Below, one piece after another: positions 4,819 through 50,340 of a DNA stretch of 64,000 nucleotides. Source of the stretch: Halieaceae bacterium (GTDB lineage: Bacteria > Pseudomonadota > Gammaproteobacteria > Pseudomonadales > Halieaceae); NCBI GenBank assembly GCA_902547755.1, contig CACCPA010000001.1, positions 1 to 64,000 of the forward strand, given 5' to 3'. Numbering within the stretch: position 1 is the first letter of the stretch; each line of letters begins with the position of its first letter. Below the pieces are notes generated by a model, which was given only the letters and a program-made list of their open reading frames with translations, had not been told where the DNA came from and searched no databases. The position numbers and the translations under genes were made by a program.

Positions 4819-5991
4819 ATGCCAACGAGCGAGCAAACCATCGTCAAACGTCTCACAGAATTGGTGGCAGCAGACTCTGTCAGCTCCCCTGATCCGTCCT
4901 GGGACAGCAGCAATCGCAGAGTGATAAACCACCTCTCTGACTATGCGGAGCGCGATGGCTGGGCCGTCGACATACATGAGCTAGAGTCGACAGCGGATGG
5001 AAAAGCGAACCTGATTGCGACCTTTGGCAACACACATAACCTAGGAGACGAGCCAGCCGGTTTAGTTCTCTCAGGTCATACGGATACTGTGCCGTTTGAT
5101 GCCGGAGGTTGGGCGTCTGACCCCCTGAAGCTCACAGAGCGGGATGGCAGGCTCTATGGTCTGGGCAGCACGGACATGAAAGGCTTTTTTGCCGTGGCGC
5201 TGGAGGCCGTATCAGCCTTTGACCCGGCTAAATTTAAAGCGCCGTTGTACTTACTTGCGACTGCCGATGAAGAGAGCACGATGAGAGGCGCTCGCTCACT
5301 GACAAAAGCACAATTACCCCTGGCAAGAGCTGCCGTTGTTGGCGAGCCTACCGATCTCCGGCCTATGCGGATGCATAAGGGCATCATGATGCAAGGCGTC
5401 ACTTTACGCGGCCAGAGCGGTCACTCGTCAGACCCTGAGTTGGGTAATAACGTCATCGAGGCTTTGCCTACGCTGTTATCTGTGCTGTCTCAGTATCGCG
5501 ATGAACTGGCTAAGACGTTTCGTTGTGAGCTGATGGCTGTTCCTGTGCCAACAATCAATTTTGGTTGCGTCCACGGTGGCGATAGTCCCAACAGGATCTG
5601 TGGGGAGCTGGATTTTAGTTTTGATGTGCGAATGCTGCCGGGTCTCGAGTACGCCGACGTAGAGCGTGATTTGAATGCCAGGCTAGTTGAGATTGCAGCG
5701 CTGCATGACATCGATATTGAGATGCGCCGTTTGGTTGAACCTGTGCCGGCCTTCGAGCAGGCTGAAGGCAGTGAGTTAGTGGTTGCCTGTGAGCATGCGT
5801 CGGGGCAGACAGCCGATGCTGTCAACTTTGCAACTGAGGCACCATTTTTAAAGTCGCTAGGACTGGAAACCATTGTCATGGGTCCTGGCTCGATAGACGT
5901 CGCTCATCAACCCAACGAGTACATGCCGCTCGATCAGATTCAGCCAGCGATCGACACCCTACGGACACTGATTAACCGATACTGCATGTAA
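4819..5991 (+). CDS. argE: Acetylornithine deacetylase, M20 family
   Basis: This 390-residue M20 metallohydrolase has H87-x-D89 in SGHTDTVPFD, the bridging Asp at about 119 (STDMKGFF), the catalytic Glu pair at about 151-152 (TADEEST) and a late His in HQPNEYM. The GHTDTVPFD context and length match ArgE, which removes acetate from N-acetylornithine in arginine synthesis. There is no signal peptide. DapE (succinyl-diaminopimelate desuccinylase) is the main alternative; the sequence reads more like ArgE. It is monocistronic here, about 125 bp from the divergent galM. Confidence 0.85.
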   Translation: MPTSEQTIVKRLTELVAADSVSSPDPSWDSSNRRVINHLSDYAERDGWAVDIHELESTADGKANLIATFGNTHNLGDEPAGLVLSGHTDTVPFDAGGWASDPLKLTERDGRLYGLGSTDMKGFFAVALEAVSAFDPAKFKAPLYLLATADEESTMRGARSLTKAQLPLARAAVVGEPTDLRPMRMHKGIMMQGVTLRGQSGHSSDPELGNNVIEALPTLLSVLSQYRDELAKTFRCELMAVPVPTINFGCVHGGDSPNRICGELDFSFDVRMLPGLEYADVERDLNARLVEIAALHDIDIEMRRLVEPVPAFEQAEGSELVVACEHASGQTADAVNFATEAPFLKSLGLETIVMGPGSIDVAHQPNEYMPLDQIQPAIDTLRTLINRYCM

Positions 5992-13300: not shown

Positions 13301-14635
13301 TTGAATGATTCAACACAGAATGTCACAAGCCCTGCACCCCACCACTTATATTCGAATCGCTATCGGTATTATGTCCTCGCGCTGCTGACGCTGGGTTATG
13401 TGTTCAATTTTGTCGACCGCCAGGTGATGACCATTCTCATCGAGCCGATCAAGGCTGAGTTTGGTGCGACAGATACGCAGATGGGCTTCTTGTCAGGTCT
13501 CGCATTCGCGCTTTTTTACGCCACCTTGGGTATACCTGTGGCTCGTCTTGCCGACAGATGGTCAAGACGCAACGTACTGACCATATCCATGACCACGTGG
13601 AGTGCGGTCACCGCCTTATGCACAACGGCTACGGGATTTTGGCACTTGCTGCTTCTACGCATTGGCGTGGGTGTTGGCGAGGCGGGTGGTACACCACCAT
13701 CGCAATCGTTGTTTGCAGATTACTTCGCTCCGGAAAAGCGAGCCTTCGCTCAAGGCATTCTGGCCACTGCCCCGAATATTGGCATCTTGGTAGGTCTGTT
13801 CGGTGGCGCTGTAATTGCCGAAGCGTATGGCTGGCGTACCGTATTTCTGGTGTTTGGCATTCCCGGCGTGTTACTCGCTGCTCTCATTCAAATAACGGTC
13901 AAAGAGCCTCCCAAGCTCAAGCCAGCTTCAGAAGTAGTCGATCAGGGCCTGTTTAGCGCTCTCAGGCACATTGTCAGATTGCCATCGTTTATCCATATCA
14001 TGGTAGGTGTTGGCTTTACTGGCTTCGCGGGCTACGGCCTCGGTGTTTGGTCGCCGAGTTTCCTGGTGCGAGTGCACTCAATGAGCTTGGTCGATGCAGG
14101 TTTGTATCTAGGTCTCAGTGGAGTGTTTGGTGGTGGCTTGGGGACTATTTCGAGCGGACTCATGGTTGACGCGTTGGCGCGACGAGACCGGCGGTGGCAG
14201 TTGTGGGTGCCCGCCATCGGGATTTTTCTCGCGCTACCCACTCAGCTTGCATTCCTGCTCTGGCCGGTCGAGCACCGTCTAATGATCGGCTCAGTCGATC
14301 TACCCTTTGCACTGGTGTTTATGGGTTTGTCGGCCGTTTTTGCCAGCTTTTGGATAGCACCAAGTTACGCTGCGGTTCAGAACCTGGTACCTCAGCATTG
14401 GCGGACCCAAGCCTCTGCGCTCATGTTGTTAGCGATTAATCTGCTGGGGATGGGTCTCGGGCCATTGCTTGTCGGTATGCTGAGTGATGGGTTTTCAGCC
14501 TACGGTGATGATTCTATCCGCTATGCTTTATCGATAGGCGTCAGTTTAAGTGTCGTTGGAGGTATCGCCTACCTGAGTGGCAGTACGAAATACGCCAGAG
14601 CTATCGCCCAATCAGAGGAAGGTGCTGACACGTAA
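13301..14635 (+). CDS. MFS transporter, spinster-like
   Basis: This 444-residue protein has 12 predicted membrane spans. The first span contains YVFNFVDRQVMTILIEPIK, typical of spinster/4-hydroxybenzoate-type MFS proteins, followed by motif A (GIPVARLADRWSRRN). The start is a TTG at 13301 with AAGG 9 bases upstream; no other in-frame start occurs before the first membrane span. The substrate is unknown. It shares a divergent promoter region with the MFS gene at 11751. Confidence 0.83.
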   Translation: MNDSTQNVTSPAPHHLYSNRYRYYVLALLTLGYVFNFVDRQVMTILIEPIKAEFGATDTQMGFLSGLAFALFYATLGIPVARLADRWSRRNVLTISMTTWSAVTALCTTATGFWHLLLLRIGVGVGEAGGTPPSQSLFADYFAPEKRAFAQGILATAPNIGILVGLFGGAVIAEAYGWRTVFLVFGIPGVLLAALIQITVKEPPKLKPASEVVDQGLFSALRHIVRLPSFIHIMVGVGFTGFAGYGLGVWSPSFLVRVHSMSLVDAGLYLGLSGVFGGGLGTISSGLMVDALARRDRRWQLWVPAIGIFLALPTQLAFLLWPVEHRLMIGSVDLPFALVFMGLSAVFASFWIAPSYAAVQNLVPQHWRTQASALMLLAINLLGMGLGPLLVGMLSDGFSAYGDDSIRYALSIGVSLSVVGGIAYLSGSTKYARAIAQSEEGADT

Positions 14636-14776
14636 GGCCTTTTAAGCGCGCTGCTAGGTGAGCGTGCAGTGAGGTTTTTTCTAAATACTATCCCGATACC
14701 GAGTGCGGCTGGGGGTAGTTAGTATTGTGGTTCGGCGATCGCATACGCAGGACCGGCAGGGCTAAGGGGGATAACG

Positions 14777-14920
14777 ATGAAGTTCTTTGACTGGCATTAA
14801 AGACAGACGGAATGGTGGCTGGACAGACTGGGAATTACACCCTATGCCGCGCTTTGGTTCGCATACTTAAAAGGAGTGGTGACGACGCTTCTCGTGCTGC
14901 GGTTGCTAGGCTATTTTTAG
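14777..14920 (+). pseudogene. 47-codon small membrane protein gene interrupted by TAA at codon 8
   Basis: Behind an excellent ribosome-binding site (AAGGGGG, 6 bases before ATG) the frame reads MKFFDWH, then a TAA at 14798-14800, then continues without a break as RQTEWWLDRLGITPYAALW and a hydrophobic tail ending LLGYF before TAG. The downstream part is clearly protein-like: Trp/Tyr-rich amphipathic start and one C-terminal membrane helix. Without the TAA this would be a normal tiny membrane protein. It could be a one-base nonsense mutation (AAA, CAA or GAA to TAA), a sequencing error, or true readthrough. The protein is not known to me. The convergent neighbour at 14996 shows the same kind of defect. 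Confidence 0.55.
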
Positions 14921-14957
14921 CGGGAAAGTGAGGGTGTAGAAGGAGGCGTGAGGGAGT

Positions 14958-14985
14958 AAAAACACGCCCGGACAGGGCCCGGGCG
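14958..14985 (-). terminator. Intrinsic terminator for the minus-strand small gene
   Basis: CGCCCGG (14965-14971) pairs with CCGGGCG (14979-14985), and on the minus strand the stem is followed by five U residues (AAAAA at 14958-14962 on the plus strand). It sits 10 bp after the stop of the interrupted gene 14996-15328. Confidence 0.75.
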
Positions 14986-14995
14986 CACAGCGAGG

Positions 14996-15328
14996 TTACT
15001 CGCCTGAGGCCATAACCGAGTCTTTAACAGCAAGCAGGAAGTTCGCTACCACCATTCCAGCAATCATTACCGCGATATTGTCGATAATGCTGTTCAACGG
15101 TGCACCAATGGCTGGAATAGCATCCAGTTGGTTGGCCACTGTTGGCATTGCAACTGCCGCGACGGTGTAGGCCATACGACCTGCCATGTCTGCAGTTGGG
15201 TTCATGGAACCGCTGACCAATCCTAAAACGACTAGGATCAGGGCGGACTAGGCAGCAAGCTGACCGACAAATACGGCGGCAATCGCAACCACTACACCAA
15301 CGGCTGTTAAGATTTGGTTAACGTTCAT
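14996..15328 (-). pseudogene. 110-residue membrane protein gene interrupted by TAG at codon 27
   Basis: The ATG at 15326-15328 has AAGGAT at the right distance. The frame reads MNVNQILTAVGVVVAIAAVF...GQLAA, hits TAG at 15248-15250, and then runs on for 83 residues (SALILVVLGLVSG..., ending VMASGE) to a stop at 14996. Three hydrophobic segments are visible: about 5-24, 28-42 and 80-97. Codon 27 falls between two hydrophobic stretches, so a coding triplet there would make one intact small membrane protein. An internal ATG at 15218-15220 could only start a truncated 74-residue form without a Shine-Dalgarno. The function is unknown. It has its own terminator downstream and a nested inverted repeat upstream. 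Confidence 0.6.
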
Positions 15329-15341
15329 AGTCTTATCCTTA

Positions 15342-15438
15342 TTGTTACCAAGTTTGTCACTGTGCTCACCCTGCCCCATATCCGATGGAGTTGTTGTTAT
15401 CGGAAGCTACAAGGAAGACAGTGATCCCAAGGTAACAA
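15342..15438. promoter_or_regulatory. Nested inverted repeats (possible structured leader)
   Basis: Three arm pairs nest symmetrically: TTGTTACC (15342-15349) with GGTAACAA (15431-15438), TCACTG (15357-15362) with CAGTGA (15419-15424), and TCCGAT (about 15381-15386) with ATCGGA (about 15399-15404). The block starts 13 bp upstream of the start codon of the interrupted minus-strand gene at 15328. It could be a 5' leader RNA fold or a large cruciform operator. Confidence 0.5.
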
Positions 15439-15500
15439 CAGAAATGACTAAATTGGGTATTTCATCGCCACAAAAGTTCGTTTTATCGTAATTTTTACGT

Positions 15501-15689
15501 TTATCGCCGGCGCGCCTTCCAGGTTCCGCCGTACTGATAATGGCTACCAGATCCCTGCTTAAACGCCGTGAGACACGCTTCACACCTAAACAGCCAGTTC
15601 GTACTGCTCTGACTTCTACTGCGATACAAAACGGGGAAGGTGGCCTGACAGTCTGCGCACTGTTTTTCTCGTTTTGATCTTGTTGTCAT
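15501..15689 (-). CDS. Small zinc-ribbon protein
   Basis: This 62-residue basic protein has two C-x-x-C pairs, CADC at about 11-14 and CEAC at about 36-39, with a Trp/Phe between them, which is a classic zinc ribbon. The C-terminal tail is basic (WKARRR). ATG 15689 is chosen; a GTG extension to 15734 is open but neither start has a strong ribosome-binding site. It is divergent from lipA. No specific function is known; such ribbons bind nucleic acid or act as small adaptors. Confidence 0.55.
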   Translation of the reverse strand: MTTRSKREKQCADCQATFPVLYRSRSQSSTNWLFRCEACLTAFKQGSGSHYQYGGTWKARRR

Positions 15690-15783
15690 AGATGCTTGAG
15701 GTCGGTTCGGGTTCGGGACTTTCGATGATGTCACCTAGTGATTTCACGGGGTCTTGAAGCGGTTCATGGTGTAAACTATTTGT

Positions 15784-29270: not shown

Positions 29271-31007
29271 CTAGTTAATAGGCCGGTGCTGCCACTCTTC
29301 GCCCAGGTAGCGTCTCTTTTTCTTAGGGAGTAACTGGGTCAGATCAGCAATGACAAAGGCATCCACACAATCGCCAAATGCGGGATCCACATTAAAGGCA
29401 GAGAACGACACTCCGTCCATACTGGTGGCTTGCGAGTAATGCTTAAAGAGTAGGGGAATGCTTAGGTCCTGAGCCTTAAGCATTGCTTGCAGTGTCGTGA
29501 GATCGGTTTGAGAATCTTCGCCCGGCATTTCGTTCATCAGCTGCTTTTTCAATGACTCGGAAACATCAAAAGGCGTCCTGGGAGTTACCTCAACAGACAG
29601 TCGATTCACATGGGTTTGGTAAAAATGTGCAATGCGCGCAATGGCCTCGTTTCCGTAGCGAGATGAGATAGAGGCAGAACCAAAGAGATACCGAATGTGC
29701 GGGTGTGCCCGCACATAAGCTCCAATACCGCACCAGAGGTAGTCCAGTGCATACCGGTTTTGATATTGGGGCTGAACGAAGCTTCGACCCAACTCAAGCC
29801 CATGCTGAAAGTATGAACACATCGTTGGAGCAAAATGAAACAGCGAATGCGTGTACAAGCCCTTCAAACCCGCTCGCTCCATGAGCTTTCGTGCATCTCC
29901 GAGTCGATACGCGCCGACAATTTCTCGGTCCTCGTAGCTCCAGATGAATAGGTGATGATAGTGCGCATCGAATTCATCGGTGTCACGCTCGTATCCCGAC
30001 CCCTCGCCGATCGGACGGAAAGTGGCTTCTCGCAGACGCCCAATCTCCCGGACGATCGCGGGCGACTGCGTTTTTGTAGTCAGAAACAGTGCCTTGCCGT
30101 CCAGGGTCGTTCCAAGCGACTGACACCGCTTCAGATCTTCTTCTAGGCTTTCGCGTGATTCCGGATCAGCAATGGGGTGAGGATGTGACGAGGGCAGGTC
30201 GCAGGCTTCGGGTAAGGAATAAACCTGTGTTTTTATGTCGTCTGCAATGAGCTCAGTCGGTTCTTCACTCTCGGTCAAGACGGGGTATGAAATGGGGCTT
30301 CCCACATTTGCAGAAATACGAGCATTACGGTGCTTGAACATTTCGCGAACGAGCCACGCCGTCGAGAGGGGTTTTACTAGGAGACTCAAGCCATAAAAAA
30401 AGCGAGAGTTCTTGCCTTGAATCAAGACCGGCACGATGGTTGCCCGGTAGCGGAGGGCGAGACGTACAAAGCTACTGTTCCATTGCCCATCTTGAATACC
30501 CGAAAGACGCCATCGGGAGACTTCACCCGCGGGGAACATAATGATGGCGCCGCCGCTCGCAAGGTGTGACTGAATGGCGCGAAGTTGCTGTCGAGACGTC
30601 TTGTTGTTCATGTTGTCGACGGGCAGGGCAAAGGGTTGAAGCCGTTCTATGTGCATCAGCAGTTCATTAACCACAATTTTGGCATCAGGTCGGATTGAAA
30701 GAACGGCATCTAGCAAGCCGATGCCATCGAGTGATCCCAGGGGGTGATTGGCAACAATGATGACTTGACCCTGCACTGGAATGCGTGACAGCTCGGCCTG
30801 ATGAATCTCAAGTTTAAAATTAAAAAACCTCAGCACGGCCGCCGGAAAAGGCTGCCCCTCTGACTCGGGATGCGTCCGCTCGAACTGCTCAAAGATTTTT
30901 TGACCCAATACGAACCCTAAAAGCGACCCTAGCAGGCTCGCAGACATTGGCCATTTCGAGGTAAATGCGGGTTGGTAATGTTTCAAGATGTGTTGGAAGT
31001 CCAACAT
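29271..31007 (-). CDS. olsF: Bifunctional ornithine-lipid acyltransferase OlsF-like
   Basis: This 578-residue protein fuses two acyltransferase modules. The N-terminal half is PlsC-like, with NHPLGSLD (His 88, Asp 94) and a downstream FPAGEVSR block. The C-terminal half (about 290-520) is an OlsB/hemolysin-type GNAT domain (REATFRPIGEGSGYERDTDEFDAHYHHL...GAYRLG). This is the order in OlsF, where the C-terminal part makes lyso-ornithine lipid from ornithine and acyl-ACP and the N-terminal part adds the second acyl chain. The product would be a phosphate-free membrane lipid. A Pit phosphate transporter gene lies directly upstream, which fits a phosphate-linked context. Confidence 0.82.
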   Translation of the reverse strand: MLDFQHILKHYQPAFTSKWPMSASLLGSLLGFVLGQKIFEQFERTHPESEGQPFPAAVLRFFNFKLEIHQAELSRIPVQGQVIIVANHPLGSLDGIGLLDAVLSIRPDAKIVVNELLMHIERLQPFALPVDNMNNKTSRQQLRAIQSHLASGGAIIMFPAGEVSRWRLSGIQDGQWNSSFVRLALRYRATIVPVLIQGKNSRFFYGLSLLVKPLSTAWLVREMFKHRNARISANVGSPISYPVLTESEEPTELIADDIKTQVYSLPEACDLPSSHPHPIADPESRESLEEDLKRCQSLGTTLDGKALFLTTKTQSPAIVREIGRLREATFRPIGEGSGYERDTDEFDAHYHHLFIWSYEDREIVGAYRLGDARKLMERAGLKGLYTHSLFHFAPTMCSYFQHGLELGRSFVQPQYQNRYALDYLWCGIGAYVRAHPHIRYLFGSASISSRYGNEAIARIAHFYQTHVNRLSVEVTPRTPFDVSESLKKQLMNEMPGEDSQTDLTTLQAMLKAQDLSIPLLFKHYSQATSMDGVSFSAFNVDPAFGDCVDAFVIADLTQLLPKKKRRYLGEEWQHRPIN

Positions 31008-42111: not shown

Positions 42112-42840
42112 ATGGGTACGACATCTCATCACGCTTCAGTCTTAGCTATCGATACGGCAACCAATTTGTGCTCTATCGCGCTTGTTAACGATTCCGATAT
42201 CAAAGAGATCCAGCGCGATTTACCTCGCGCGCACAACCAACATATTTTGTCGATGATCGATGAGCTCTTAGAAGGACAATCGCTGTCAGACGCGGTGTCT
42301 GTTATCGCCTGCGGCGTGGGTCCAGGCTCGTTTACGGGAATACGAGTTGCTGTCGGCGTTGCTCAGGGGCTCGGCTGGTCGCTCGATCTCCCAATTTATC
42401 CCTTCTGCTCGCTTGAAGCGCAGGCGAGAGCGACCACGCATGCCGCAGGCGATTTTGTCCTCAGTATCATTGATGCACAGATTGGGCAGGTTTACTGGGC
42501 CTGGTTTGCATCCGATGGGACGACGCTTCGCCAACTGACGGAGCCTGCGGTATCGAAGGTGGCTGACCTGACTGGGCCATCGGGTGAGGCTTTGGATGCA
42601 ATGGAAGCCACCAGCGTAGTTATTGCTGGCGACGCCGCGGAGCTCATTACGAAGGAATATAGCGATAGGACTTTTACTCGCGTGGACTCAGAGGCTCGCC
42701 CAAGGCCTTCGCTCGCCGCACTTCATCTCCTTGATGTGCCCGATAACTCATTGTTAACCCAGGCCCATCTACTGGAGCCACGTTACGTGCAGCAAGACAT
42801 TGGTTGGAAGAAGTTGTCGGAGCAGGGGAAACGCCACTGA
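42112..42840 (+). CDS. tsaB: tRNA threonylcarbamoyladenosine biosynthesis protein TsaB
   Basis: This 242-residue protein has the ASKHA-fold signatures LAIDTATNLCSIAL (about 10-23), the LPRAHNQHILSMIDELL helix and GVGPGSFTGIRVAVGVAQGL. TsaB works with TsaC, TsaD and TsaE to make t6A37 on ANN-decoding tRNAs. ATG 42112 fits the family N-terminus; a TTG at 42103 is also open. Its stop overlaps the uppP start (TGATG). Confidence 0.93.
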   Translation: MGTTSHHASVLAIDTATNLCSIALVNDSDIKEIQRDLPRAHNQHILSMIDELLEGQSLSDAVSVIACGVGPGSFTGIRVAVGVAQGLGWSLDLPIYPFCSLEAQARATTHAAGDFVLSIIDAQIGQVYWAWFASDGTTLRQLTEPAVSKVADLTGPSGEALDAMEATSVVIAGDAAELITKEYSDRTFTRVDSEARPRPSLAALHLLDVPDNSLLTQAHLLEPRYVQQDIGWKKLSEQGKRH

Positions 42841-43643
42841 TGGATGGTCTTCAGGCACTCTTTCTAGCATTGATTCAGGGGCTAACTGAGTTTCTGCCGG
42901 TCTCAAGCTCAGCGCACCTTATTCTGCCGTCACAGCTCTTGGGCTGGCCTGATCAAGGGTTGGCATTTGATGTGGCAGTTCACGCCGGCACCTTAGTGGC
43001 TGTCATGGTCTATTACCGTGAGTCGTTAACCTCGCTGGTGATGGGCGTTTTGGGCTCCGGGGATAACGTCAGCTTGCGGCGTCGAGAAGTCTCGGCGCTC
43101 CTGATTGCTACCTTGCCTGCGGTCGTCATCGGTATCGCTTTCTCGGATGCCATCGATCAGTACTTGAGAGGAATCGGAGTCATAGCCACTACCACCTTAC
43201 TGTTCGGCTTGCTCCTGGGTGTCTCCTATTCGTATCGTGCCGCAGGAGCCGATGAACAGCCGATCAGCCGGCTCGATCATGCGCTAGTCATTGGCCTGGC
43301 ACAGGCGCTTGCATTAATCCCCGGCACGTCACGCTCTGGCGTGACGATTACGGCATCCTTGTTTCTGGGCTACAACCTCGCGACATCGGCACGTTTTTCG
43401 TTTCTGATGTCCATTCCTGTTATCGCGGGCGCGTTACTGCTCATGTTGGTCAAAGAGTTTGAGCTTTTCTTCAGCTCGGCCAATTTGACCCTGACGTTGA
43501 TTGCCATGCTGGTAGCTGCTGTCAGCGCCTACGCAACCATAGCGTTCTTCGTTGGACTGGTTACTCGCGTCGGGATGATGCCGTTTGTGATATACCGTGT
43601 GCTCTTGGCTTTGATCCTGTTTTCTATCTTGGTGTTTGTATGA
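42840..43643 (+). CDS. uppP: Undecaprenyl-diphosphatase
   Basis: This 267-residue membrane protein has the two BacA/UppP signatures, QGLTEFLPVSSSAHL near the N-terminus and PGTSRSGVT in the second half, and about eight hydrophobic segments. It dephosphorylates undecaprenyl diphosphate to recycle the cell-wall lipid carrier. The ATG overlaps the tsaB stop, and its own end overlaps the M18 aminopeptidase start by 4 bp. Confidence 0.95.
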   Translation: MDGLQALFLALIQGLTEFLPVSSSAHLILPSQLLGWPDQGLAFDVAVHAGTLVAVMVYYRESLTSLVMGVLGSGDNVSLRRREVSALLIATLPAVVIGIAFSDAIDQYLRGIGVIATTTLLFGLLLGVSYSYRAAGADEQPISRLDHALVIGLAQALALIPGTSRSGVTITASLFLGYNLATSARFSFLMSIPVIAGALLLMLVKEFELFFSSANLTLTLIAMLVAAVSAYATIAFFVGLVTRVGMMPFVIYRVLLALILFSILVFV

Positions 43644-50003: not shown

Positions 50004-50086
50004 CTATCTTTTATTTGGGTCCGAGGCCCCGCAACACATCACGCGGGCGACTGACGGACTTGCTCGATCAGCTATCCGTTATTAAA

Positions 50087-50158
50087 TCAGACAGCCTTGA
50101 AGTACATTGTGACTTCAAAACCAAGACGAATCTTTTGATAACTAGGCTTAGTCCACAT
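50087..50158 (-). CDS. pqqA: PQQ precursor peptide PqqA
   Basis: The 23-residue product is MWTKPSYQKIRLGFEVTMYF followed by KAV. It has the conserved Glu 15 and Tyr 19 (E-x3-Y) that PqqE cross-links to build PQQ. GAGAGGAC precedes the ATG at 50156-50158. It heads the pqqA-B-D-E-C cluster. Confidence 0.96.
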   Translation of the reverse strand: MWTKPSYQKIRLGFEVTMYFKAV

Positions 50159-50340
50159 ACGAGTCCTCTCCCTCCATAGATAATGACACTTTGGTCCTTA
50201 CTGCTGACCCATAGTAGCAAGGTTTTTCGGTAAATGGCTAGTGTCTCCTGGGATATCCGCACATACAGCGAAAGCTGCGTATGCTCCATCACACTGCTGA
50301 AGAGAAACCTGACGCAGCCGTCTGGTCAAAGTGACCTGTC
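50159..50340. other. Divergent pqqA/purC intergenic region
   Basis: No gene is seen. It should contain the promoters of pqqA (minus) and purC (plus). No clear sigma-70 pair is visible to me. Confidence 0.4.

Follow-up and report, generated by a model that had tools for sequence, protein, structure and literature searches.

Private in-frame stop codons in two convergent small membrane-protein genes of a Halieaceae genome

The described systems closest to the locus reported here are bacterial nonsense pseudogenes and the recoding of stop codons (selenocysteine, pyrrolysine, suppressor tRNA). With nonsense pseudogenes the locus shares single in-frame stops, intact orthologues, missense changes at conserved residues, and neighbouring deletions in relatives. 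It differs from them in that the case would be unusually young, that separate point changes affect two adjacent convergent genes, and that it is known from an assembled consensus alone. With recoding it shares protein-like sequence that continues in frame behind the stop. The papers listed in a search on OM60/NOR5 pseudogenes do not concern this subject, and a search for literature on Luminiphilus small membrane proteins found nothing.

Two convergent genes with in-frame stops

The source genome (G000) is a 2.09-Mb assembly of a Halieaceae bacterium in 53 contigs, 72% complete, and the window, that is, the whole stretch of DNA analysed, is the first 64 kb of its contig 1. Relatives found at 14 loci carry the names Halieaceae (9), Luminiphilus (3), Alteromonadaceae (1), and Gammaproteobacteria (1), which fits the OM60/NOR5 placement guessed in an earlier, sequence-only reading. 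The gene order around the locus is MFS_a (-), MFS_b (+), gene 1 (+), gene 2 (-), a small Cys-rich ORF (-), lipA (+), and nadK (+). Its features are as follows.

13301..14635, + strand: MFS_b transporter gene, directly upstream of gene 1; an open reading frame here, with a TTG start
14777..14920, + strand: gene 1, a 47-codon gene for a single-helix-like membrane protein; TAA at codon 8 (14798-14800); private missense changes at codons 20 and 42
14962..14988, - strand: terminator-like hairpin and T run just behind gene 2; fold -19.5 kcal/mol, z -2.86
14996..15328, - strand: gene 2, a 110-codon gene for a hydrophobic membrane protein (probably four-helix, from a low-confidence model); TAG at codon 27 (15250-15248); private missense change at codon 41
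15501..15734, - strand: variable small Cys-rich ORF between gene 2 and lipA

The sequence-only reading had reported a TAA at codon 8 of a 47-codon gene starting at 14777 and a TAG at codon 27 of a 110-codon gene at 14996-15328, and both positions are exact. The two genes do face each other, with both stops inside one 552-base locus, and ribosome-binding-like stretches (AAGGGGG, AAGGA) are present ahead of the starts. Behind the TAA the frame of gene 1 is open again up to a TAG at 14918-14920 (47 codons plus stop); behind the TAG that of gene 2 is open again up to a stop at 14998-14996 (110 codons plus stop). The claim that protein-like sequence continues beyond both stops also stands, this sequence being still highly similar to that of relatives.

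Relatives of both genes were sought in 58 genomes, one of them the source genome itself. Gene 1 has matches at 14 places in 13 other genomes, and gene 2 has matches in 12 other genomes (E 1e-57 to 5e-37), all of the same genus. An internal stop is absent from 12 of the 14 gene 1 matches. The stop flagged in G024 is the natural end of the protein, and the only true internal stop, in the single-contig genome G030, is a late and independent TAA at codon 37 (L050, 7958-7820, - strand). None of the 12 gene 2 matches contains an internal stop. Because intact relatives exist, the two frames are, judged by homology, real genes and not chance. Neither gene has a match over the curated cut-offs of Pfam and NCBIfam.

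Alignment places a sense codon at each stop position. At codon 8, the 15 aligned homologues of gene 1 (G030, G020, and one of two matches in G006 being left out) have Arg (9), Gln (5), or Lys (1); at codon 27, the 18 aligned homologues of gene 2 (without the partial locus L042) have Tyr (14), His (2), Met (1), or Gln (1). Thus, for both genes there are intact orthologues with a sense codon at the position of the stop, as in nonsense pseudogenes, and on this comparison both stops are private to the source genome.

Possible decoding of the stops and truncated products

The similarity of the post-stop sequence to relatives would be expected if the stops were read through or decoded as amino acids by a suppressor tRNA, by recoding, or by programmed readthrough. 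Other features of the genome differ from those of a recoding system. The stops are TAA and TAG and are not conserved among orthologues, and both codons are in normal use as terminators: among the 43 window genes whose 3' end is common to a homologue, 17 end in TGA, 13 in TAG, and 13 in TAA. Both release factors, prfA and prfB, are encoded (one match each over the cut-off). ARAGORN, run on 28 tRNA places and a tRNA-Sec in search of a suppressor tRNA, returned neither a TTA nor a CTA anticodon, an observation that is weak in a 72%-complete assembly where tRNA-Lys and tRNA-Asp are likewise unseen. On the basis of stop usage, release factors, tRNA anticodons, and the non-conserved stops, recoding or suppression was rejected; readthrough in any form is hardly plausible, and the finding has no bearing on recoding. 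The tRNA-Sec gene (anticodon tca; L113, G000:C25:11407-11496) indicates that TGA may encode selenocysteine, which does not bear on TAA or TAG.

It is likewise extremely improbable that shortened products are functional, either as a 26-residue N-terminal peptide or through restarted translation of gene 2. A 74-codon frame does exist in gene 2 from a TTG at 15220, but such an architecture occurs in no homologue, gene 1 would retain just 7 residues, and private missense changes have hit invariant residues in the remaining parts. On the favoured reading, described below, ribosomes would start normally on both genes and stop after 7 codons in gene 1 and 26 in gene 2, so that no working protein would be made.

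Possible sequence error and probable recent inactivation

The stops could also be consensus errors or assembled minority variants, the genes being intact in the population. The state of the assembly (53 contigs, 72% complete) is in keeping with this, as is the finding that only two changes in gene 2 are private and that both are damaging. In the longer genes of the window, the branch leading to G000 carries 227 missense, 555 synonymous, and 0 stop changes, and that leading to the relative G035 carries 196 missense, 554 synonymous, and 2 stop changes, both stops lying ahead of the point where the gene at 42804-43643 probably begins. The slight excess of missense changes on the G000 branch (227 versus 196) could accommodate some tens of errors at random sites.

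A survey of the ORFs of relatives (at least 60 codons and at least 75% identity, or 70% for G019) for interruption in the window covered it thinly at 33.5-40 kb and extended to 54.6 kb, leaving 54.6-64 kb outside. It flagged 18 ORFs, comprising 6 of the 49 covered ORFs of G035, 8 of 44 of G016, and 4 of 39 of G019. Genes 1 or 2 account for three of the 18. Another 13 are explained by an over-extended start, a different 3' end, or an overlapping or antisense frame (one judged by position alone). The remaining 2 are short ORFs at 40842-40651 and 50009-50227. Together, the branch counts and the survey do not support an assembly that is riddled with errors genome-wide; a local error may still have occurred. 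One of the cases with a different 3' end is the 578-codon gene at 29271-31007, which stops about 20 codons earlier than its counterparts in G016 and G019. On the G000 branch this gene is high in private missense changes (33 missense versus 30 synonymous).

Measured against the 12,629 codons of the 43 other window genes, the chance that both of two random stops fall in the gene 1/gene 2 pair is 1.5e-4, and the chance that a second random stop falls in gene 2 is about 0.9%, both values being post hoc. Against error, then, is the placement of both stops in a single locus that is itself damaged in other genomes. Private changes do not peak over gene 2: the bin at 15100-15300 has 2, although the highest bin, 14700-14900, has 12. 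Moreover, neither gene contains a frameshift. A lack of intact homologues or the presence of random frameshifts had been named beforehand as speaking against the original claim; what was found is intact homologues and two genes free of frameshifts. Error or a minority variant is thus rather unlikely, though far from negligible.

The private changes, that is, those specific to G000 and counted where all five other rows of the alignment agree, are informative about timing. In gene 1 they comprise 2 synonymous, 2 missense, and 1 nonsense; in gene 2, 0 synonymous, 1 missense, and 1 nonsense; G035 and G016 have 0 such changes in either gene. Codon 42 of gene 1, one of the missense sites, encodes a residue that is invariant in 15 of 15 homologues; for the missense site in gene 2, codon 41, the figure is 18 of 18. 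The flanking genes have a pairwise synonymous divergence of 0.16-0.22, and about half of this, 0.08-0.10, was taken as the divergence of the branch. On that basis, about 11-14 private changes are expected in gene 1 and about 27-33 in gene 2 if both had evolved neutrally since the split from G035. The 5 and 2 seen are well under this expectation, even though an invariant residue has changed in each gene. Consequently, constraint on gene 1 may have been lifted first, leaving it free over a portion of the branch, and the release of gene 2 would be very recent.

The reading that fits these results best, and is probably correct, is that two accessory small membrane-protein genes have very recently become loss-of-function alleles, or young pseudogenes. 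Of the three options in the sequence-only reading (the locus decaying as a unit, readthrough, sequence error), decay is now the best supported, because two stops lie in a 552-base locus, invariant residues are damaged, and the locus is independently broken in relatives; readthrough is not supported; and error has kept some standing, with no clear window-wide excess. One point against young pseudogenes is the strong conservation of gene 2 among its carriers, set out below. Another is that gene 2 is otherwise pristine, its start, ribosome-binding site, terminator, and synonymous sites all being kept. Its inactivation would therefore have to be extremely young, and would look the same as an error or a minority variant. 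We infer that both stops are present in the organism and not in the consensus alone.

As to why young pseudogenes would arise here, the most likely account is that the loss is an ordinary event, a dispensable stretch of the genome starting to decay. That the paired stops are adaptive knockouts is quite improbable; loss of gene 2, a constrained and probably highly expressed Halieaceae gene, would then have been selected in some populations, for example because it is the target of a phage or a competitor. If the stops are real, they would show gene loss very soon after its onset in a marine bacterium whose genome is small; otherwise the finding is routine.

A labile locus and the character of gene 2

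Comparison with relatives indicates that the stretch between the MFS transporter pair and lipA is labile, given a deletion in G017, a frameshift in AG-891-G07, and the late stop in gene 1 of G030. In G017 (L083, G017:C85, near contig position 5280), one deletion begins at codon 38 of MFS_b, ends near window position 15480, and removes most of MFS_b along with genes 1 and 2; the junction has a short shared motif, TTTTrTCG. In the assembly AG-891-G07 (L032), MFS_b is frameshifted by one base and a stop interrupts the Cys-rich ORF; genes 1 and 2 are intact there. In G019, gene 1 is present and the stretch compared around it has no match to gene 2 or MFS_b; in G018 (L041), gene 2 is present with no gene 1 at that locus. 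The start of MFS_b is TTG in the source genome versus GTG in four relatives. The Cys-rich ORF at 15501-15734 has variable ends and weak, sub-threshold zinc-ribbon-like matches.

The suggestion that the two products form one membrane system has fared unevenly. Of 36 genomes of the same genus, 7 have both genes, 6 have only gene 1, 5 have only gene 2, and 18 have neither (Fisher p 0.07, with no correction for kinship or incompleteness). In favour of the suggestion, the close form of gene 1 occurs with gene 2 in 6 of the 36, more often than expected (the corresponding counts being 6, 1, 6, and 23; p 0.003, likewise uncorrected). Against it, genes 1 and 2 lie far apart on one contig in the single-contig genomes G005 and G030, and each gene also occurs without the other.

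The single match in a PDB sequence search (E 0.96) is meaningless, and no relative of gene 2 was confirmed on viral contigs, so a phage origin of the gene is not backed. A promoter scan found 0 versus 0.9 expected. The AlphaFold model of gene 2 is all-helical, with four helices, at low confidence (mean pLDDT 53.8), a quality insufficient for searching by fold.

The conservation of gene 2 is more telling. Its synonymous divergence between G000 and G035 is 0.012 versus 0.16-0.22 in four neighbouring genes, and between G035 and L031 it is 0.40, where the two MFS genes reach 1.06 and 1.76. The leader is conserved as well (stretch 14996-15400 of the window), and the arms of the hairpin behind the gene still pair in G016 despite a change on both sides. 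The few synonymous changes, the conserved leader, and the terminator-like hairpin together suggest a well-expressed single gene. Gene 2 is strongly conserved wherever it is present among the genomes compared and hence is important to most of its carriers, and it looks like a member of an undescribed conserved family of membrane proteins.
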